Assembly: GCF_012939995.1 (NCBI RefSeq)
Contig: NZ_SPMZ01000022.1
Span: forward strand, 537 to 64,536
DNA length: 64,000 nucleotides
Direction: 5' to 3'
DNA from: Candidatus Competibacter phosphatis
GTDB lineage: Bacteria; Pseudomonadota; Gammaproteobacteria; Competibacterales; Competibacteraceae
Shown here: positions 2,586 to 63,858 of the stretch, one piece after another
Position numbering within the stretch: the first letter of the stretch is position 1
Layout of the letters: every line of letters begins with the position of its first letter
The notes under the pieces: generated by a model
What the model was told of the DNA's origin: nothing
The model's input: the letters and a program-made list of their open reading frames with translations, nothing else
Databases searched by the model: none
Program-made: the position numbers and the translations under genes

Positions 2586-4032
2586 TACTACAGTTGTAGA
2601 AACTCCCATAAAGTCATGGAGAGAGGACAGGACTTTGCACGTTGTCGTCGCCGCCAATGAAAATACTGGGCGATGCGCTGATGACGGCGTCGCCAACGGA
2701 ACCAATGGAGCATACAGTTTCGGTGAGAAAACGGTCCGGTCAGAGGGGTGATAAACCATAACCAACGGCGAAGGTCGGCCAAGGAGACCGTGACCGTGAC
2801 GGGTCTATCTGGAAGCGGTAGAGGTTTTTTTTCAACACACGCTGTCGACAACCGACGAGGAAGGCATAAGCGGCCATGACCAGCGTGATATGCCGGTACC
2901 AGCCGTGCCAGGTCCGCACTTCGTACTGATCCAGGCCCAGTTGCGACTTGGTTTCTTGAAAGCAGCGTTCGATGGCCCAACGGGCACCGGCGGCCAAGGC
3001 CAATTCGGCCAAGGAACAGGTCACGGGCGCGAAGGCCAAATAGGCGGTCAGACGCCCCTCATCCAAGGTGCGGCGGACCAGAAGATAGCGTTGGCCGATC
3101 GCCTCGGGCGGCGTGTTGATCGGTTGGCAAGTCCATTCGTACTCACGGGGTCCTTGGCCGCCAGCCCCCGCGCTGAGCCGCGCCCACGCGGTCTGCGGGT
3201 CGGTGGCGAGGGCGGCCAAGACGTCCCGCACTGCGTATTGGACCCCACCCTGCCAGAAATAAGTTTTACCACTGACCGCCAGAACATAGGGTTGATTCCG
3301 CTCCTCCAGACTGGCGCGCAGGCGATCGCTCTCTCCATACACCGCATCGCCGGTGACCCAACGGGCCGGGATGCCCGCGTCCAAAGCCCGCAGAATCATT
3401 TCACGCGCCAGTTCGGTTTTCGGCTGGTGCGCCACGTCGTCATCGATGCCCGCCCGCTGACAGCGCGCGCGATCCGCCGACCACGCTTCCGGGAGAAACA
3501 AGGCGCGGTCGATCAACCCCTGTCCCCAACAACTGGCATAGGCCAGAAACACGCCGACCTGACTGTTCTCGATCCGGCCCGCCGTGCCACTATCTTGGCG
3601 CTGCACCCCAGCAGAATGGCGGCCTTTCTTCAAAAAGCCGGTTTCATCGACGATCAAGACGCCTTCCGCATCCGCCAGCGCATGGATCACCCGAGCCCGC
3701 GCCGCATCCCGCACCCCGTCCGCATCCCATCGGGCACGGCCCAGTAAGTGCTGGAATCCATAGGGATGGGCCTCCCCTCGTGCTTCCGCCAACTGCCAAC
3801 AATTGCGTCGTTCCACCCCACCCAGCAACCCCTGGAGATACGCCGCCAGCCATTCGCGCGTCTCGAACCGTTTCGCGTAACCACCCAGTTCCGCAACCCA
3901 CTCGGCCCAGGCCGCTTCCCAATCCCTCGCGTCTCCTTCCCATTCATCCTGCCACGCTTCACCCATCACCAACCGTTCTCTCGGCAAAAAATCCAGATGA
4001 AGTATAAACTTGTATTATCTACAACTGTAGTA
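2586..4032 (-). mobile_element. IS701-family insertion sequence, complete
   Basis: A 1447-bp element with terminal inverted repeats TACTACAGTTGTAGA (2586-2600) and its complement (4018-4032). It is flanked by the direct repeat TTAG at 2582-2585 and 4033-4036. TTAG fits the 4-bp YTAR target duplication known for IS701. It carries one transposase on the minus strand. The right-hand TTAG forms the outer edge of the next IS, so the element landed precisely at that border. Confidence 0.9.
2740..3987 (-). CDS. IS701-family DDE transposase
   Basis: An intact 415-aa transposase that cuts and joins the element's ends. Catalytic-type motifs are visible in order: IVDETGFLKKG (first Asp) near residue 115, VTGDAVYGES (second Asp) near 220, and RWAIERCFQETKSQLGLDQY (Glu region) near 340. 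It begins with AEWVAELGGYAKRFETRE, typical of the family. Length and single-ORF structure match IS701 members. No frameshift is seen, so the element may be active. Confidence 0.9.
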   Translation of the reverse strand: MPRERLVMGEAWQDEWEGDARDWEAAWAEWVAELGGYAKRFETREWLAAYLQGLLGGVERRNCWQLAEARGEAHPYGFQHLLGRARWDADGVRDAARARVIHALADAEGVLIVDETGFLKKGRHSAGVQRQDSGTAGRIENSQVGVFLAYASCWGQGLIDRALFLPEAWSADRARCQRAGIDDDVAHQPKTELAREMILRALDAGIPARWVTGDAVYGESDRLRASLEERNQPYVLAVSGKTYFWQGGVQYAVRDVLAALATDPQTAWARLSAGAGGQGPREYEWTCQPINTPPEAIGQRYLLVRRTLDEGRLTAYLAFAPVTCSLAELALAAGARWAIERCFQETKSQLGLDQYEVRTWHGWYRHITLVMAAYAFLVGCRQRVLKKNLYRFQIDPSRSRSPWPTFAVGYGLSPL

Positions 4033-52622: not shown

Positions 52623-53407
52623 GCATGGGTTCGGCGGAGAAAGTGATCGAAATCCGGGGCCTACACACGCGCTTCGGCGAGACGATCATTCATGACAACC
52701 TGGATCTCGATATTTCCCGAGGCGAAGTGGTGGCCCTGGTCGGCGGCAGCGGTTCCGGCAAGACCACCTTGGTGCGAGCGGTGATCATGCTGCTGAAGCC
52801 GGCGGCAGGCTCCATCAAACTGTTTGGAGAAGAGATTGTCGGGATCGGCGACGGTCCGGCGTTTCGGCTACGGCGGCGCTTCGGCATGCTGTTTCAGCAA
52901 GGAGCGCTGTTCGGTTCGCTCACGGTGCGGGAGAATGTGGCGGTGCCGCTGCGCGAGCACACCCGGTTGCCGGCCCGGCGAATCGCGGAAATCGCCGATC
53001 TCAAGATCGCGCTGGCGGGTCTACCGGCCGACGCCGGCAACAAACTGCCGCGCGAACTGAGTGGCGGCATGCTCAAACGCGCGGCCCTGGCGCGGGCGCT
53101 GGCGCTGGACCCAGCGCTGCTGTTTCTAGACGAGCCGACCTCCGGCCTCGATCCGGTCAGCGCCGGCGCGTTCGACGAGCTGGTGGTGCAGCTCAAGGAA
53201 TCGCTGGGATTGACGGTGGTCATGGTGACCCACGACCTGGATTCGCTGTGGCACGCCACCGATCGGGTGGCGTTTCTGGGTGAAAAGCGGGTGATCGGTT
53301 ACGCGCCGATGGCGGAGTTGGTGACGGCCGAACATCCGCTGATCCGGGCCTATTTCGAGGGACCACGCGGCCGCGCGGCGCGGGGACAAATATGTACAGC
53401 AAAGTGA
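52613..53407 (+). CDS. MlaF-like ABC transporter ATP-binding protein
   Basis: A 264-aa ATPase: Walker A VGGSGSGKTTLVRAV near residue 45, Q-loop LFQQGALFGSLTVREN, signature LSGGMLKRAALARALALDPA near 145, Walker B ALLFLDEPTSGLDPVSAG, and the H-loop VMVTHDLDS. It overlaps the permease stop by 10 bp and the MCE gene by 16 bp, so the operon is translationally coupled. It powers lipid movement between the membranes. Confidence 0.92.
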   Translation: MALSMGSAEKVIEIRGLHTRFGETIIHDNLDLDISRGEVVALVGGSGSGKTTLVRAVIMLLKPAAGSIKLFGEEIVGIGDGPAFRLRRRFGMLFQQGALFGSLTVRENVAVPLREHTRLPARRIAEIADLKIALAGLPADAGNKLPRELSGGMLKRAALARALALDPALLFLDEPTSGLDPVSAGAFDELVVQLKESLGLTVVMVTHDLDSLWHATDRVAFLGEKRVIGYAPMAELVTAEHPLIRAYFEGPRGRAARGQICTAK

Positions 53408-54378
53408 ATTACGCTCTGGTGGGCCTGTTCGTCGTCCTGTTTGGCGCGGCGGCGGTGGGCGTGTCGTTCTGGCTGACGATTGGGGTCGAGAACAAAACCT
53501 ACGACCGCTACCGGGTGTATTTCCACGAATCGGTGGCCGGTCTGAGCCTCAAGGCGGCGGTCCGCTATCGCGGCGTTCAGATCGGACAGGTGGAATCCAT
53601 CCGGCTCGATCCCGCCAACCCCGATCAGGTGGATGTGGTGCTGAACATCGAACGCGGCACGCCAATCCGGCGCGGCACCATCGCAACCCTGTCCAAGCAG
53701 GGCCTGACCGGCGTGGCGTCGGTGGAACTGAGTGGCGGCGGTCAGTCGCTGCCCTTGGAGAAGCAACCGGGGCAGGAACTGCCGGTGATTCAAGCCGGAC
53801 CGTCGCTGGTGGCCCGCCTGGACGACGCTTTCAACAATATCATTACCAATGTCGACAACCTGTCGCGGCGCCTCGAACGCTTGCTGGGCGATCAAAATCA
53901 GACGGCCCTGACCCAGACCCTGCAAAATCTCAGCACGATCACCGGCGCGGTGGCCGACCGCTCCGACCGCATCCGCCAGACCCTGGATCATGTGGAAGTC
54001 TTCACCGGCACCTTGGCGGATCGCTCGGGGCAATTGGGCAAGGCACTGGATCAACTGACAACGATGTTGCAGGGCACCGGCGACTTGAGTGCACGGGTTC
54101 GGGCCACCCTGAGCGATTTTCGCGCGGGTGCCCAAGCGGTGCGTCGAACGGCCGACACCTTCAACCAGACCAGCCGGGACCTGAGCGGCCTGGCTGAGGT
54201 CGGGCAACGGGAATTGCGACAATTGGGGCAAAATACCGTGCCGGAATTCAATAGCCTGCTGGTGGAAGCCAACGAACTGGTGGTAGTCCTACGGCGGTTG
54301 GCCGAATTGCTGGAACAGAACCCGCGCGCCCTGCTGGTGGGCAAGCCCAGCGGCCGACCGGGTCCTGGGGAAAAGTAA
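53392..54378 (+). CDS. MlaD-like MCE-domain substrate-binding protein
   Basis: A 328-aa protein anchored by one N-terminal helix (ALVGLFVVLFGAAAVGVSFW). The MCE domain spans about 40-120 (YRVYFHESVAGLSLKAAVRY; VRYRGVQIGQVESIRLDP). A long helical region (about 145-300) with repeated aspartate/glutamine heptads suits a helical needle or tube. It is periplasmic and carries lipid towards or from the outer membrane with the lipoprotein encoded next. Confidence 0.9.
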   Translation: MYSKVNYALVGLFVVLFGAAAVGVSFWLTIGVENKTYDRYRVYFHESVAGLSLKAAVRYRGVQIGQVESIRLDPANPDQVDVVLNIERGTPIRRGTIATLSKQGLTGVASVELSGGGQSLPLEKQPGQELPVIQAGPSLVARLDDAFNNIITNVDNLSRRLERLLGDQNQTALTQTLQNLSTITGAVADRSDRIRQTLDHVEVFTGTLADRSGQLGKALDQLTTMLQGTGDLSARVRATLSDFRAGAQAVRRTADTFNQTSRDLSGLAEVGQRELRQLGQNTVPEFNSLLVEANELVVVLRRLAELLEQNPRALLVGKPSGRPGPGEK

Positions 54379-54428
54379 GGGCGCGAAAAGCGGGTCAACA
54401 ACGAATAAAAAGTCGAAAAGGACGGAAT

Positions 54429-55076
54429 GTGCGGAATCACAACGTAGGGTGCCTCGAAGGCGAACGCGGGCGATGCTGGATCCGATTTGGGGGAGTGCTA
54501 CTGGCCACGCTGGCGCTGAGCGCTTGTCTGCTGCCGCAGGACAAATCGCCGCCACGACAGGACTATCTATTGGAGGTCACGAGCTTCGCGTCACCACCAG
54601 CTCGACGCGCCAGCGACAAGATCCTGCTGGTGGCGATGCCCAAGGCCGCGCCGGGTTTCGATTCCAACCGTATCGCCTACAGCCGAGAACCGCTGAAACT
54701 GGACTACTACAACGACAGCGGCTGGAGCGATACACCGGCCAAGATGCTGCTGCCCATTCTGGTGCGGGCGTTCGAAACCACTGGGGCGTTCAAGGCGGTG
54801 GTATCGCCGCCGGCGCCAGGCTTGGCCGACTTGCGGGTGGACGTGGACGTGATCCGCTTGCAGCAGGAGTTCATGACCCAACCCAGCAAGGTGCGGTTGA
54901 CCGCGCGGATCAAAGTGCTGGATATGAAAAGTAGACACGTACTGGGAACTCAGGTGTTCGAGGCGGTGGAACCGGCCCCCAGCGAAAATGCCTACGGCGC
55001 GGTCCGGGCGACGAACGCCGCTGTTCAGAAAATTCTGGGAGAGATGGTGCCGTTTGCGCTGCAATATGTGGGGTGA
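54429..55076 (+). CDS. ABC-type transport auxiliary lipoprotein (PqiC/YmbA-like)
   Basis: A 215-aa protein from GTG 54429 with a lipobox LALSACLL near residue 34. The body (PRQDYLLEVTSFASPPARRA; YSREPLKLDYYNDSGWSD; FETTGAFKAVVSPPA; LRVDVDVIRLQQEF) matches the auxiliary lipoproteins of MCE transporters. It is probably the outer-membrane partner of the MCE needle. Its residues 1-20 before the hydrophobic stretch are unusually long, so an internal start is possible. Confidence 0.82.
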   Translation: MRNHNVGCLEGERGRCWIRFGGVLLATLALSACLLPQDKSPPRQDYLLEVTSFASPPARRASDKILLVAMPKAAPGFDSNRIAYSREPLKLDYYNDSGWSDTPAKMLLPILVRAFETTGAFKAVVSPPAPGLADLRVDVDVIRLQQEFMTQPSKVRLTARIKVLDMKSRHVLGTQVFEAVEPAPSENAYGAVRATNAAVQKILGEMVPFALQYVG

Positions 55077-56591: not shown

Positions 56592-57302
56592 ATGGCCGCC
56601 CGCATCCTGCTGGTCGAGGACGAACCCACCATCGCCGAAATCGTCGAGTTCGCGCTGACCGGCGAAGGGTTCCAGGTCGCCTGGCGTACCCTGGCCCGCG
56701 ACGCCGAAGCCGCACTGGCCGCCGATGCCCACGATCTACTCATCCTCGACATCGGTTTGCCCGATGGATCGGGTCTGGAGCTGCTCAAGCGGATAAGACG
56801 CGATTCGGACATGCCGGTGCTGATCCTCTCCGCTCGCAACGCCGAACTGGATCGGGTTCTCGGGCTGGAACTGGGCGCGGACGATTACGTCAGCAAGCCG
56901 TTCAGCCCGCGCGAGCTGGCTGCCCGGGTCAAGGCCATCCTCAAGCGCAGCGTTCGAAACCACGTCATCGCGACGGAGCCGGCCGCCGGCGAACCCGCTG
57001 ACTCCAACGGATTCGAGGTCGACGAGGCCCGCGCCACGATTCGGTTTCAGCGCCGGCCCCTGGACTTGACCCGGTATGAATACCTCATCCTCAAGACGCT
57101 TCTGACCCAACCGGAACGGGTGTTCTCCCGCGCCCAACTGATGGATCGGGTTTGGTCCGACCCCGCCGCCAGCTTCGAGCGCAGCGTGGACACCCACATC
57201 AAGACGCTACGGGCCAAGCTGCGCGAGATCGAACCGCGCTTCGATCCGATCCGCACCCATCGCGGTTTGGGTTATTCGATCCGAGTCGCGGACCGACCCT
57301 GA
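56592..57302 (+). CDS. creB: Two-component response regulator, CreB-like
   Basis: A 236-aa OmpR/PhoB-type regulator. The receiver domain has ILLVEDEPTIAEIVEFAL (acidic pair), LLILDIGLPDGSGLELL (phospho-Asp) and GADDYVSKPFSPREL (conserved Lys). The C-terminal winged helix includes LTRYEYLILKTLLTQPERVF and SVDTHIKTLRAKL. The assignment to CreB rests on order: creB, creC, creD follow one another. It should bind direct repeats upstream of creD when phosphorylated. Confidence 0.88.
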   Translation: MAARILLVEDEPTIAEIVEFALTGEGFQVAWRTLARDAEAALAADAHDLLILDIGLPDGSGLELLKRIRRDSDMPVLILSARNAELDRVLGLELGADDYVSKPFSPRELAARVKAILKRSVRNHVIATEPAAGEPADSNGFEVDEARATIRFQRRPLDLTRYEYLILKTLLTQPERVFSRAQLMDRVWSDPAASFERSVDTHIKTLRAKLREIEPRFDPIRTHRGLGYSIRVADRP

Positions 57303-57314
57303 AACCGCGCCGCC

Positions 57315-58757
57315 ATGCGTCTGGGTCTCAAGCTGTTTCTCGGCTATTTCCTGATTGTCGGTCTAGGCGTGTATTTCTCCCTGAACATCTTCGGCAAGGA
57401 GCTCAAGCCGGCCTTCCGCCAAGCCACCGAGGACACGCTGATCGACACCGCCAACCTGCTGGCGGTGCTGGTGCGCGACGACCTGCTCGACGGCGGCATC
57501 GCCGACGGCCGCTTCCAGGAGCGGCTGGCGGAATACGCCAATCGCGCGCCCAATGCCCGGATTTGGGATATCGCCAAGCAGGCTTTCGATCACCGCATCT
57601 ACATCACCGATCAACGAGGTGTAGTGCTGTTCGACTCCAGCGGGCGGGATGTTGGTCAGGACTATTCCCGCTGGAACGATGTCCACCTGACCCTGCGCGG
57701 TCAGTACGGTGCCCGCACCACCCGCGACGACCCACACGACGAGCGGACCTCGGTGATGTACGTGGCGGCGCCGGTTCGGGACGGCGAACGCATCGTCGGC
57801 GTGCTGACCGTGGCCAAACCCGGCGCCAGCGTTCAGCCCTTTGTGGACCGGGCCGAAGCCAAGCTGTATCGCGCCGCCGCCGTGCTGGTGGCGGTGTCGC
57901 TGACCGTGGGGCTGGTGTTCTCCTGGTCGCTGGCCCATTCCATCGGCCGGCTGGCTGGCTACGCCCGCGCCGCCGCCGATGGCCGGCGGGCGCTCGTGCC
58001 GAAAGGCGGCGGACCGGAATTGCGCGCCTTGGCGGAAGCGGTGGAAACCATGCGGAGCAAGCTGGATGGCCGGGATTACGTGGAGCGCTACGTCCATACC
58101 CTGACCCACGAAATGAAAAGCCCGCTGGCAGCCATCGCCGGCGCCGCCGAATTGTTGCAGGGCGAGCTACCGGGACCGCAACGCGAGCGCTTCGCCAACC
58201 TGGTCGCCGGGGAGGCCGAACGGCTCCAGCAATTGGTCGAGCGTCTGCTGGCGCTGGCCACCGTCGAGCAGCGGCGCGAACCGCAGGAGCGGCGACCGGT
58301 CGAGCTGCGCCGAACCGTGGAGGAATGGCGGACCGCCCGCGCGCCCGCCATCGCCCGCAAGGATTTAGAGATCGACAACCGGATTGCCGAGGGTGCAGCC
58401 TTTCTGGGGGAACCGTTCCTACTGGTTCAGGCCATCGGTAATCTGCTCGATAACGCGCTGGATTTCACGCCCGCGCACGGGACCGTGACGATCGAGGCCG
58501 ACCCGGCCGGCAACGTCTGGCGACTGAGCGTGACCAACAGCGGTAGCGCCATTCCCGACTATGCCCGCGAGCGGCTGTTCGAGCGCTTCTATTCCCTACC
58601 TCGCCCGGACACCGGCCGCAAGAGCACCGGACTGGGGCTGGCCTTCGTCCGGGAAGTCGCGCAACTGCACGGCGGAACGGTCACGGTGGATAACGTGCCA
58701 GATGCCGATGGCGCTATCATCGGAGTGGTTGCCCGACTGAGCCTGCCGGCGGCCTGA
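57315..58757 (+). CDS. creC: Two-component sensor histidine kinase, CreC-like
   Basis: A 480-aa kinase. Helix 1 is at residues 4-22 (LKLFLGYFLIVGLGVYFSL), then a periplasmic sensor of about 165 residues (VVLFDSSGRDVGQDYSRWND). Helix 2 is near 195-215 (AAAVLVAVSLTVGLVFSW), then HAMP and HisKA with YVHTLTHEMKSPLAAIAGAA (phospho-His). HATPase boxes follow: LLDNALDFTPAHG (N) and KSTGLGLAFVREVAQLHGG (G). It starts 12 bp after creB and should phosphorylate it. In E. coli CreC responds to carbon and redox state. Confidence 0.9.
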   Translation: MRLGLKLFLGYFLIVGLGVYFSLNIFGKELKPAFRQATEDTLIDTANLLAVLVRDDLLDGGIADGRFQERLAEYANRAPNARIWDIAKQAFDHRIYITDQRGVVLFDSSGRDVGQDYSRWNDVHLTLRGQYGARTTRDDPHDERTSVMYVAAPVRDGERIVGVLTVAKPGASVQPFVDRAEAKLYRAAAVLVAVSLTVGLVFSWSLAHSIGRLAGYARAAADGRRALVPKGGGPELRALAEAVETMRSKLDGRDYVERYVHTLTHEMKSPLAAIAGAAELLQGELPGPQRERFANLVAGEAERLQQLVERLLALATVEQRREPQERRPVELRRTVEEWRTARAPAIARKDLEIDNRIAEGAAFLGEPFLLVQAIGNLLDNALDFTPAHGTVTIEADPAGNVWRLSVTNSGSAIPDYARERLFERFYSLPRPDTGRKSTGLGLAFVREVAQLHGGTVTVDNVPDADGAIIGVVARLSLPAA

Positions 58758-58786
58758 CTCCCGCTCGATCAGCGTTACCGGCCGCT

Positions 58787-58813
58787 TCACTCAATCCTCA
58801 CACTTCCCTCACT
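58787..58813 (+). promoter_or_regulatory. Cre-tag-like direct repeats upstream of creD
   Basis: TTCAC (58787-58791), CTCAC (58798-58802) and CTCAC (58809-58813) are separated by exactly 6 bp each. The E. coli CreB site (cre tag) is two TTCAC boxes with a 6-bp spacer. The array is 71 bp before the creD start, in the creC-creD gap. Fit to the known site is good, but binding is inferred. Confidence 0.6.
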
Positions 58814-58883
58814 CCCCGCGCATCAGGGCCTCAATTCACCGGTTTAGGCTGGCCTCGTCATTCATTTACCCGAGGAAGCCCCG

Positions 58884-60245
58884 ATGAAAAACCCACTGTT
58901 CGTCAAGGTGGTTCTAGTGTTCCTGGTCACGGTGGTGCTGGCCACCGGCCTGTCGCAAATCGATTATCTGGTGCGAGAGCGGACGCAACGCCGCGATCAG
59001 GTCGTCGCCGGCATCGCCGCCGCCACCGCTCGCGACCAAATCCTGGTCGGGCCGTTGCTAGTCATTCCCTACACTCGCATCGTCAAGACGCAGAAGCCCA
59101 GCGAGAAGGACGACAACAAGATGATCGAGGTCGAAACACGTTATGCGGACTGGCTGTATCTGCCGCCAGCCGAGCTGGATGTCCAGGCCAACCTGAACAC
59201 CGAACAAATTCGCCGCAGCCTGTATTACGCCGTGGTGTTTAGCGGTGCCGTTTCGCTCAAGGGCCGCTTCGCGTCCGATGGCGAATTGCTGCAACCCGGT
59301 CCGAACGAACGGATCGAATTCGGCGATCCTCGCCTGATCGTCGGGATCGGCGATCCGCGCGGCATCCTGCGAGCGCCGGCGCTGGTTTGGGCCGGACAGC
59401 GGCTCGATTTCCTGCCAGGTACCGCCGAGGAAAAAATGCCTAACGGTATTCAGGCCCGCCTTATGGGTCTCGACCTCCAGCACGGGTGGTCGGCCGAGTT
59501 CGAATTCACGCTCGACCTGCGCGGTACCCAGTCCTTCGATGTCGCGCCGGTGGGCGACACCACCCACATTGACGTGCGCGGCAACTGGCCGCATCCCAGT
59601 TTTTATGGCCAGTTCCTACCGGAATCGCGCCAAGTGAACGACGCCGGCTTTTCCGCCGCCTGGTCCACCACTCGGCTGGCCACCAACATGCTCCATCAAT
59701 TGTTCGAACATCTGCGTAACAACCGCCCGCTCGATACCTTGATCGGGGTGCGCTTCGTCGATCCGACCGACAGTTACACCCAGACCGACCGCGCGATCAA
59801 ATACGGGCTGCTGTTCATCGGTCTGACCTTCGCCGCCTTCTTCCTGTTCGAGGTACTCAAGCGGTTGGCGATCCATCCCTTTCAATACAGCTTGGCCGGC
59901 ACGGCGCTGGTGTTGTTCTATCTGCTGCTACTGTCACTGTCGGAACATGTGGACTTCGGGATCGCCTACGCGACCGCCACCGCCGGCTGCGTGGCGCTGC
60001 TAGCCTATTACCTCAGCTATGTGCTGGGTAGCCTGGGCTGGGGTTTGGGTTTCGGGGCGCTGATCGGCGCGGTGTTCGGGATTCTGTACGTATTGATCAG
60101 CCTGGAGGATCTGGCGCTGTTGGCCGGCTCGGTGACCTTGTTTGGTGCCCTGGCGCTGGTGATGACGCTAACCCGCAAGGTGGACTGGTATCAATTAGGA
60201 GAGGCGCTGGGCACGCGACGCGGCAAGGGATTGGACGGCGTGTGA
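58884..60245 (+). CDS. creD: Inner-membrane protein CreD
   Basis: A 453-aa protein: N-terminal helix (VVLVFLVTVVLATGLSQI), then a large periplasmic domain with family motifs (YTRIVKTQKPS; EVETRYADWLYLPPAELD; NNRPLDTLIGVRFVDPTDSY), then about five C-terminal helices from residue 312 (LLFIGLTFAAFFLFEVLKRL; VLFYLLLLSLSEHVDFGIAY). This is the full CreD architecture. CreD is the main CreBC-regulated gene and affects envelope integrity and beta-lactam response. GAGGAAG precedes ATG 58884. Confidence 0.92.
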   Translation: MKNPLFVKVVLVFLVTVVLATGLSQIDYLVRERTQRRDQVVAGIAAATARDQILVGPLLVIPYTRIVKTQKPSEKDDNKMIEVETRYADWLYLPPAELDVQANLNTEQIRRSLYYAVVFSGAVSLKGRFASDGELLQPGPNERIEFGDPRLIVGIGDPRGILRAPALVWAGQRLDFLPGTAEEKMPNGIQARLMGLDLQHGWSAEFEFTLDLRGTQSFDVAPVGDTTHIDVRGNWPHPSFYGQFLPESRQVNDAGFSAAWSTTRLATNMLHQLFEHLRNNRPLDTLIGVRFVDPTDSYTQTDRAIKYGLLFIGLTFAAFFLFEVLKRLAIHPFQYSLAGTALVLFYLLLLSLSEHVDFGIAYATATAGCVALLAYYLSYVLGSLGWGLGFGALIGAVFGILYVLISLEDLALLAGSVTLFGALALVMTLTRKVDWYQLGEALGTRRGKGLDGV

Positions 60246-60304: not shown

Positions 60305-63300
60305 TCATGGGCGGGCCTTCATGGCAAGGCTGTCTGGTTCGGCGCTCAAATCGTGCCGCCGCCAAGCGTCCGGCGGCAGCGCGGCGGCCGCCAATTCGCA
60401 GAGATGGCCGTGATGGGTGAAAAACAGCACCTGCGCGCGGCAGGCCAATTCGGCCAACACCCCCAGTGTCGCCACGGCCCGGTCATCGTCGAACTGCACC
60501 AGCAAATCGTCGATGGCGATGGGAACGGCCTCGCGCTCCCGCAGATGTTCCTCGATGGCCGCAATGCGCAATGCCAGGAACAATTGGTCGCGCGTGCTTG
60601 GCTCAATCCATCCATCCCTACCTTGACCGCATCCGGCCGTTTCCCCACCAAGATTTGCCGGTCGTCCTGGTAATCCATTTCCAAGCCGCTGAAACTACCC
60701 AGGGTGATCCGGGCGAAGATTTCGCTGGCACGGCGCAGCACCGGTCCCTGATGTTGCTCCCGGTACGCCTGCACGACCCGCGACACGACGGCGCCGGCCA
60801 GCCGGGCGCGGGCGTAGGCGCGGGATTGCCGGGCGATACGGGCGGCCATCTCCTCGGCACCCTGTTGCGCCTGTGCCGCCACGTCGCCGCCGTCGATGAC
60901 GTCAAAAGCGCGGCGTGCGTCCAGACAGACCGCATACGCGGTTTCCAGCTCGGCTTCACCCTCGCGGATCGTGGTTTCCAACTCATCCAAGCGGGCATGG
61001 GTGGCATCCAGATCCTCGCCCTCGATCTCGGTCAATACTTCGGCCAGCGGGCGAGCGGCACCGCGCACCAGTTGCTCCTCGATCTCGGTCACCCGCTCGG
61101 CCAACCGCCGCTTGTGCGTCGCTTGTTCCTCGACCGCCGCCAATTCGTCCAGCGATTCCACCCCGGCGCGACGCAGCAGTTCGACCAGGCGGTCGTGCTG
61201 ACTCGCGGCGGCGGCCTCCGCTCGGTCGAGTCCGTCCTGTTCCCGGACGATGGCGGCGTCGGCCTGCTTGCGCCGACGGTCGGCGTCACGCGCTTCGTTC
61301 AAGGCGGTGTACAGCGTATCGGCGATCCGGTCGGCCGTTCGATCGGTGGCGGTTTCGCCGACGGCGCGCGTCAATTCGGCCAGCGCGCTTTCAAAGTCGG
61401 CACGGGTCGTCCGTTCCCGCTGGACCTCGCCAGACAAGCTCTCCAGCTTTCGCAAGGTCTGGGCAAGCCGATCCCACTGATCGAGCCGGACTCGCGCCTC
61501 CGCCGGCAAGGCTTGGGGCGACAATCGCAATTCGCGCATGGCGGCGTCCCATTGCGTCCGCCAGACCGCCTGTTTCTCGGCCAGTCCGGCACGCTTCGCG
61601 GCAACTTCACGCCGTTCGGCTTCGCATTGGCGGATGCCGCTATCGAGCTTAGCGCGTGCCATGGCGGTTTGGCGGCCCTGCTCGATGGCCACCTTGGCAC
61701 GGCCGAGCGCGACCGACAGGGCTTCGTCATCGCTCAACGCCGGTAAACCGCATTTCCGTAAGGCCCGATCCAGCGTTTGACGGACCACCGCCAATGCCGC
61801 GCCGATCTCTCGTCGTTCCCGCCGCAACGTTTCCAAATGAGCGGAACGTTCGACCAGCAGCGCCTGTTTGCCCAGCCACTCCGCCGCCGCGCCGGGCGAA
61901 AGATCGGGCTGACGCAAGGATTCGGCGATCACCTTCCAGCGCGTGTCGAGTCGGTCGCGTTCAGCGGTCAGATCGGCGAACTGGCCCGCGCAATCCGAGC
62001 GCGCCCGCTGCATGTCGACGATGCGCTGGCGGAGACTCTCGACGTTGGCGGCCCGCGTGGCGTCGGCGTGCAGCAAATCGGCCAGACGATCGGCTTCCCG
62101 CATGGCGGCCTCGAAGGCATCGAGCGGCGACTGTCCCGGCACGGGGTCCATCGTGCGCTCGACATAACCCCGACGAATCCGCCGCCAGTCTTCGTCACGC
62201 GTTTGACGGGCCTGCCGTACCTGATCGTGGGTCACGATTTCGGCGGCTGCGGCCAGAGCGCGCAGTTCGCGTTCCCGCTCGCCGATATCCCGTTGCAGGA
62301 TTCCATCCTGGTTTTTGAGCGAACGTTCCGCCTCGGCCCACTGCCTATAGCGGTCGGCTATCTCGGTCACCGTGGCCAAGGGCGGCACGCGCAGCGCGAT
62401 CAACTCATCGAGCGTCCCCTCCCACAACGACGCGGCCTCGTGCACGAGCGCGGTTTCCAGTGCGGCGATTTCTCGCGCCAACTGGATGCACTGGCCGGTG
62501 AGGTCGCCGGGCGCGGCCGCCTGCTCGCGTGCCTGTTCCAACGCCTCGAAGGGCACGGGCACGGGCTGAATTTCCAGCTCATCCCGCAGTCGTTGGCGCA
62601 TGTCGGTCAGCTCGCGCTCCCGTTCTTCCAGTTGCTCGCTCTGGACCGACCGTTTGTCGTATTCCTCCAGCAGCGCTTGTACCCGCGCCCGCGCCGTGGG
62701 TACAGGCGCCAGCGCGCGAATCCGCTCCGACAGTTCGGTGGGCGCGAGATCCGCCGCCAGCGCCGGATCGATCTCGGCAAGCTGGCCAACGCAAAACTGG
62801 CGCGCGGCATCGAGATCCGCTTCGATGCGGGGCAGGCGTTCCAGCGTACCCCGATAGTCGTTCGCGGCGTGATGCAGCCGCTCGATGGCGCCCGCATGGC
62901 GCAGCAACGCTTCGCGGACCACCAGTTGGGCACGCTGCCGGCGCAACTCCTCCAACGCTGCTCGGGCTTCCCGTTGGTTGTCGGCGGCGGTGCGCAGGCG
63001 TTCCTCGGTTTCGATGCGTTGCTGTCCGGCCTCCGGCGGCAGAAGAGGAATCGTGGCCAGCGTGGCCAGTTCCCGAAGTTTCGCCGCGCGCTCGGCGGCC
63101 AGCGGCAGGTGAGCGATGATCCGGGACAAGCGGCGCTGTTCCTCGCGCCAGCGATTCAGTTCCGCGCGCAGCTCCGAATGCTTCTCCTCGGCTTGACGCT
63201 TGGTCCGCTCGGTCTGCTCCCAGGCCGAGGAACGCACCGTCGCTTCCCGTGCCCGTTTGCGTTGCTCTTCCAGCTCCTTGAGGGCGACTTGAATTTCGCT

Positions 63301-63858
63301 TTTTTTGCCACGCGGGTTGAATAGGTCGGAGGCTTCGACCTCCAGTTTGCCCGACAACTGACGCAGATCGGCCAATCCCGCCGCCGCCGCGAACAGGCTC
63401 TGGCCGATGTCCCCTTTTCCTTCCAGCAGCGCTTCGCCGCCGCGTATCAATTCATCGTGATCGAGCCCGAACAAGGCGCGATACAAGCCTTCATCGAGAC
63501 CGCCCAACAGCCGGGTCAGCATATCCTCGGCCAGCGGCTGGTCGGTCCGTTCCTCGCCGCCGACCTCGTCCAACGCGAACAGGGTTTGCTTGCGCCCCTT
63601 GCGCCGCATGACCGCCAACCGTCCGGCGTCGGCGGTCGCCAGCGCGGCGCCGATCCGCAAGTTGGGTTTGGAATGGACGAAGTCGTCGGCGGTGCGTTCC
63701 TCGATCCCGAACAGCAAACCGATCAGGGCACGCAAGGTGGTCGACTTGCCTGCCTCGTTTGGGCCGTAAATGACATGGAAATCCGGTCCGCCGGTAAAAT
63801 CGAGCCGGCGTTCCGAGAACGCGCCGAACGCTTTGAGATAGAGATGCTCGATCTTCAT
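60305..63858 (-). CDS. YhaN-like SMC/SbcC-type AAA ATPase (one frameshift)
   Basis: An 1184-aa protein after adding one base near 60602. The N-terminal KIEHLYLKAFGAFSERRLDF and VIYGPNEAGKSTTLRALIGL (Walker A near residue 35) are followed by very long coiled coils. The C-terminal half-site contains STRDQLFLALRIAAIEEHLR (ABC signature region) and VPIAIDDLLVQFDDDRAVAT (Walker B), then VLFFTHHGHL. The ATPase works with the exonuclease encoded upstream, by analogy with SbcC-SbcD and YhaN-YhaO. Its ATG overlaps the exonuclease stop (TGATG). Confidence 0.85.

Follow-up and report, generated by a model that had tools for sequence, protein, structure and literature searches.

A five-unit 11-bp repeat array upstream of creD as a predicted CreB-dependent promoter in a Competibacter-like gammaproteobacterium

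Described CreB sites and the creBCD locus

Passages of two published papers describe a TTCAC-N6-TTCAC tag upstream of creD, together with expression of creD that depends on CreBC (PMC4689548, PMC3660660), and CreBC control of the gene also appears in a passage of a third (PMC3962086). As given in those passages, this cre/blr-tag, the site of CreB in E. coli and of BlrA in Aeromonas, has two units, each opening with T. Passages of PMC4689548 report activation by CreBC in E. coli, in Aeromonas and in P. aeruginosa, and a passage of PMC3599342 has colicin M raising creD, cbrB, cbrA and cbrC together in E. coli. The sign of the CreBC effect is not to be assumed, however, because Stenotrophomonas maltophilia, which has a creBCD cluster and a tag homologue (TTCACACTCGCTTCAA) upstream of creD, differs in this respect: CreBC lowers creD expression there, and deletion of creBC sends it up (passages of PMC4689548).

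A second described system with 11-bp direct repeats is that of PhoB, whose pho boxes at E. coli phoA and pstS have the half-site CTGTCAT. Pho boxes stand in for a −35 element. Promoter-proximal sequences are reportedly named in the title of a paper by Cariss, Tayler and Avison of 2008 (J Bacteriol 190:3930). Our search, which covered literature listings and passages of accessible papers, found no description of a longer cre-tag array or of its register; a passage search of the main text of a P. aeruginosa binding atlas (PMC8041468) returned no occurrence of creb, and in the accessible part of PMC2654508 the tag occurs in the reference list only. The family of sites is known and the lineage is new; the five-unit layout that we describe here is a variant, which may already have been described in part. 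The creD array extends a known switch and is not new in kind.

We examined a window of 64,000 nucleotides, the whole stretch of DNA analysed, from a Competibacter-like gammaproteobacterium whose genome comprises 4.39 Mb in 121 contigs; the most similar named CreD, 92% identical, comes from a Candidatus Competibacter genome. The window carries a creBCD locus on the + strand. creB (56592..57302) encodes an OmpR/PhoB-type response regulator with Pfam Response_reg and Trans_reg_C matches, which scores 312 bits against NCBIfam NF008296 (CreB; cut-off 273) and aligns with E. coli CreB; its open frame runs from TTG 56556, with ATG 56592 as the likely start. creC (57315..58757) encodes a sensor histidine kinase (NCBIfam NF008312, CreC; 642 bits, cut-off 356), and creD (58884..60245) an inner-membrane protein of 453 aa (Pfam PF06123, E 5e-141; NCBIfam NF008712, 480 bits, cut-off 275). 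All three proteins pass the equivalog cut-offs, so the genome encodes both CreB and CreC. Fourteen of 15 residues are the same in CreB here (RSVDTHIKTLRAKLR) and in E. coli CreB (RTVDTHIKTLRAKLR) over a putative recognition-helix segment.

Around the locus, genes for an MlaD-type protein and an ABC-transport auxiliary lipoprotein lie at 53392-55076, a few kb from creB, and a lipoprotein gene judged by eye to be similar faces creD in three relatives of genus g3 (L137, L138, L139). On the other side, a 1170-aa AAA_27 ATPase frame (60346-63858, − strand) shows an apparent frame change near its end, with an ATPase-like tail in another frame at 60305-60583; this change seems to be a frameshift or a sequence error.

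A five-unit array between creC and creD

The array lies in the 126-bp gap between creC and creD. On the + strand, positions 58786-58812 read TTCAC TCAATC CTCAC ACTTCC CTCAC, and the YTCAC words start at 58786, 58797 and 58808, in steps of exactly 11 bp. An earlier note on this DNA had recognised this triple, with coordinates one base too high (58787-58813), and had described it as the E. coli CreB site with one extra copy. The half-site and the 11-bp step do match that site; the count does not, for the rhythm extends past the triple through CGCAT at 58819 and CTCAA at 58830 to give five units in total, and by its score E. coli creD has four.

From the distal end, the units are TTCACTCAATC (58786..58796), CTCACACTTCC (58797..58807), CTCACTCCCCG (58808..58818, where the triple ends), CGCATCAGGGC (58819..58829) and the promoter-proximal CTCAATTCACC (58830..58840), all on the + strand; the last two had been missed, and the fourth occupies the position of a would-be −35 hexamer. 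TAGGCT (58845..58850, + strand), which begins 15 bp on from the start of the last unit, is a predicted −10 hexamer without a recognisable −35, and GAGGAAG (58872..58878, + strand) is the predicted ribosome-binding site. The array shares with the cre/blr-tag its half-site, its 11-bp step, its place before creD and its CreB partner. It differs from the published site in having five units rather than two and Y in place of the initial T, and in the 15-bp distance from its last unit to the predicted −10; strict TTCAC is present in unit 1 only, and the tag occurs in the form YTCAC-N6-YTCAC, in three copies.

The two-unit count in the window alone is only mildly unusual: YTCAC-N6-YTCAC occurs twice, as the overlapping halves of the triple, against a shuffle mean of 0.38, and two or more occurrences arose in 5 of 100 shuffles. 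Four units at 11 bp are another matter: when the 150 bp upstream of creD were shuffled 300 times, the observed score was never reached. In the 4.39-Mb genome, the creD site is the sole exact match to YTCAY-N6-YYCAY-N6-YYCAY-N6-YNCAY, and the reversed control matched nowhere in that genome and once each in G003 and G005. One more place fits with a single mismatch (G000:C79); we set it aside, as it overlaps an open frame of 151 aa. Sigma-70-like promoters with a −35 numbered zero in 58700-58900, where the shuffle mean was also 0.0, so that none was to be expected by chance either. The possibility that the array serves as a creC terminator was rejected: the same interval holds no terminator-like sites (shuffle mean 0.1), and the array is no by-product of creC, because G025, G033, G034 and G036 keep it with creD on a different contig from creC.

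Seventeen arrays from the family, one per array-bearing genome, align gap-free over 65 bp, in stretches cut beforehand with ends picked by eye. CA stands in 81 of the 85 unit cores and only 0 to 20 times in each of the other phases of the 11-bp step; it is invariant in units 4 and 5, and YARGNT occupies the predicted −10 in all 17 arrays, although common ancestry also keeps columns similar. The rhythm is better kept than the letters of the triple, the third unit of G005 being CGCGC and the second and third of G004 being CCCAT and CACAC. Two family arrays (L047, L049) showed no excess over shuffles in the single-sequence scan. In G037 (L022), where the array (3015-3079, − strand) is intact, about 130 bp more than in relatives separates the creD promoter from the start codon; this extra DNA contains inverted CCCTCCCC and GGGGAGGG stretches and resembles a small repeat element.

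The inner units are less regular in their letters. Across the 17 arrays, unit 4 is a near-fixed CNCATCA and the final base of unit 5 is more often A than C, unlike the consensus half-site, as would be expected if only the outer pair or triple were the CreB site and units 4 and 5 were a conserved core promoter with CA in phase by accident. We regard that reading as unlikely: TTCAC itself forms the −15 unit of Methylotenera and of Aeromonas, and the E. coli CreB targets cbrA and cbrB carry TTCAC-N6-TTCAC at −26 and −15 from the −10 (predicted, like that of the array, by reading the sequence), which is the register of the array. No tag was seen upstream of cbrC.

Register in other lineages and co-occurrence with creB

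The earlier note had proposed comparing the regions upstream of creD in relatives, and the 11-bp spacing proved to be kept in close and distant relatives alike. We assembled 85 upstream stretches, consisting of 79 of 80 relative loci (L069, with a partial CreD, was dropped), five loci from the family search, including that of the window, and E. coli, with creD start codons set from the protein match. Scans with the E. coli half-site over periods 7 to 16 gave means that single out 11, for three units and for four alike. Strict YTCAC at a fixed 11-bp step gave scores reached by at most 3 of 300 shuffles in nine of 18 family stretches and in 13 of 67 others; many single stretches are unremarkable, and the case rests on the alignment and on pooled scans.

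For the pooled scan, the 85 stretches were thinned to 67 non-redundant ones, a −10 at fixed distance was added and steps of 10 bp were permitted. The scan peaks at a step of 11 and a gap of 15 from the last unit to the −10, with a lesser peak at a gap of 26 (15 plus 11). The best array sets the −10 28-48 nt upstream of the start codon in 58 of the 67 stretches, compared with 14% of shuffles, and the score exceeds the shuffles' 99th percentile (16.6) in 49. Gamma- and betaproteobacteria outside the family, among them E. coli, mostly share the register.

The gap of 15 had first been spotted by eye in some of the sequences scanned, and seven fresh creD records were fetched as a better test. Six of them (Xanthomonas, Aeromonas, Burkholderia, Klebsiella and two Vibrio) score 18.5-20.6, above 16.6, and place the −10 29-34 nt upstream of the start codon; one of the six, Klebsiella, is a near relative of E. 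coli, and the start codon was chosen among candidates for Aeromonas, Burkholderia and one Vibrio. Burkholderia allows a second, equal-scoring placing, whose −10 lies no more than 18 nt upstream of the start. The seventh record, Roseomonas creD, has no array (score 14.8).

The steps between units differ among lineages, being 11-11-11 in Competibacteraceae, Pseudomonas, Vibrio and Xanthomonas and 11-10-11 in E. coli, Klebsiella, Aeromonas and Methylotenera. Many Janthinobacterium stretches have three good units only. At E. coli creD, with its four units, the perfect TTCAC words form the outer pair and the inner pair reads TTCAA and CCCAC. Six Pseudomonas loci (L065, L083, L089, L093, L110, L117) have units that are mostly TCCAC, TCCAT or CCCAT; none contains TTCAC-N6-TTCAC, and a search with the E. 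coli tag would therefore miss them.

Were the array a chance repeat in a pyrimidine-rich spacer, one would expect what is indeed seen at the level of single sequences, namely that the two-unit pattern shows only mild enrichment in the window and next to none across the genome, and that many individual stretches fail to beat their shuffles. The conservation of period, phase and register over many lineages makes this explanation scarcely credible.

Among 39 family genomes, creD is present in 20, CreC in 13 (E<=1e-60), CreB in 15 (E<=1e-70) and the array in 17; a search of the order added only one genome, which lacks creD. All 15 genomes with CreB have the array, compared with two of the 24 without it (G007, G035). 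G035 is 58% complete and keeps the array with no CreB match. In G007 (L137:1973-4682), which has neither a CreB nor a CreC match, the conserved array precedes a creD frame of only 165 aa, and a different OmpR-type response regulator and a histidine kinase lie just upstream of creD. In G008 (L138:2559-2808) and G010 (L139:1934-2159), a single contig carries creB, then directly an intact array, then creD; CreC was not found at E<=1e-60 in either genome (82% and 75% complete, respectively). Three genomes of genus g4 (G012, G013, G015) have creD and no array, CreB match or CreC match; in G012 and G013, TAAGCT nevertheless remains at the would-be −10 position.

The neighbouring regulator and kinase of G007, together with the arrays that G008 and G010 keep without creC, are what one might expect if another OmpR-family regulator, whether PhoB or an unlinked system, used the array and the linkage to creBC were a legacy. 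The array units (YTCAC, CGCAT, CTCAA) do not match the PhoB half-site CTGTCAT, which belongs to a different regulator, and the array follows CreB across the family as counted above; we therefore consider use by another regulator very improbable.

Candidate targets and a proposed mechanism

The earlier note had offered YTCAC-N6-YTCAC as a motif for finding other members of a regulon, but in this use it hardly outperforms chance: the genome holds 10 matches, two of them the triple, against seven for the reversed control. Five of the other eight lie inside predicted frames (L002, L006, L008, L009, L010), some of which may be overlong at the start, two (L001, L005) lie at the edges of opposite-strand frames, and L007 has no same-strand predicted frame within 1.5 kb on either side; no gene finder was used for these frames, which were chosen on length and third-position GC. 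A sequence-only profile of the array has a single strong match in each of 17 genomes, always at creD (E 6e-16 to 3e-12), and was trained on these same 17 positives, which makes the matches there circular. Its useful outcome is that there is no strong second place among the 134 first-look candidates scored per genome, out of roughly 160 to 2,100: the next best across the 39 genomes has E 0.04, and in the window's genome it reaches 13.0 bits against 58.7 at creD. A wider regulon is not borne out.

Requiring a −10 at the fixed gap after two units yielded nine matches in five genomes of the genus against seven for the control (three against none in the window's genome), a total that is not above chance. 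Four of these loci were inspected, of which we followed only the one present in two genomes. This is a two-unit CreB-like promoter, TTCATCAGAAT TTCACGGCACCCGAT TAAGTT, upstream of an oxygenase-like gene (G000:C7:100408-100439; L184:1501-1532, − strand). The product, of 268 aa, has a partial match to Pfam HalD (E 8.5e-8); no NCBIfam family matched it at cut-off, and a sequence search of solved structures returned nothing.

Among 17 orthologues, the promoter score is at least 11 in 11: seven of nine in genomes with CreB (G000, G003, G004, G005, G006, G029, G034) and four of eight in genomes without it (G007, G012, G015, G035), the place in G015 being at another distance. The promoter was not found in the remaining six of these 17, namely G009, G014, G018, G026 and the two genomes without creC, G008 and G010. 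When 12 of the 17 upstream stretches were shuffled 1000 times each, the observed score came up 0 to 7 times for ten of them and more than 500 times for G008 and G010. We treat the oxygenase-like gene as a weak lead to a possible CreB target, with modest odds because genomes with CreB are not clearly favoured.

On the evidence of the sequences compared, we consider it probable that 58786-58850 is an activator-dependent creD promoter, on which phosphorylated CreB acts from five 11-bp half-sites in the manner of PhoB. The five direct repeats, which lie roughly along one face of the helix, would form a landing strip for phosphorylated CreB supplied by the adjoining creB and creC pair, with the protein probably bound head to tail as PhoB is. 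The better outer units (TTCAC, CTCAC, CTCAC) would help to load CreB co-operatively onto the poorer inner units (CGCAT, CTCAA), and CreB on the inner units would replace the apparently missing −35 and hold RNA polymerase at the predicted −10, TAGGCT, to set a presumed transcription start. The likeness to E. coli phoA and pstS lies in 11-bp direct repeats whose last TCA core precedes the −10 by 14 nt, again predicted by reading the sequence; the PhoB register is not clearly visible at the E. coli phoB promoter.

Such an array might also bind CreB and mainly repress creD, covering the −35 and spacer region and blocking RNA polymerase until CreB leaves. The proximal units do overlap the promoter, and the rise of creD on creBC deletion in S. 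maltophilia has this sign (a passage of PMC4689548). Repression nevertheless seems to us very unlikely here: the promoter has no recognisable −35 with which to work free of an activator (a weak point, for the shuffles gave none either), it shares its register with the PhoB sites at phoA and pstS and with E. coli genes reported to be activated by CreBC, and activation is the effect reported for the three other organisms named at the outset.

We tentatively extend the proposal of a CreB-activated array beyond this locus, at somewhat less than even confidence. CreB might be a head-to-tail array protein throughout gamma- and betaproteobacteria, with creD promoters of about three to six half-sites (extremes counted by eye) in steps of 10-11 bp at a fixed distance from the −10; the published two-copy tag would then be the best-matching pair, and the number and quality of units would set promoter strength. 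In Competibacteraceae, the full array would serve creD alone, and the two-unit promoter of the oxygenase-like gene would be the sole other candidate.

If this holds, a promoter rule of fixed register takes the place of a two-copy consensus word. Such a rule would explain why the plain motif finds targets poorly and would tell which bases to mutate. CreB targets would be predictable in genomes without genetics, and CreB would be tied to the PhoB way of activating. The genomes in which creC, or both creB and creC, are missing would serve as natural experiments for testing where in the array selection acts. In Competibacter relatives, creD, which encodes an envelope protein, would stand under a system that passages of PMC3599342 and PMC3962086 link elsewhere to peptidoglycan damage and carbon supply.
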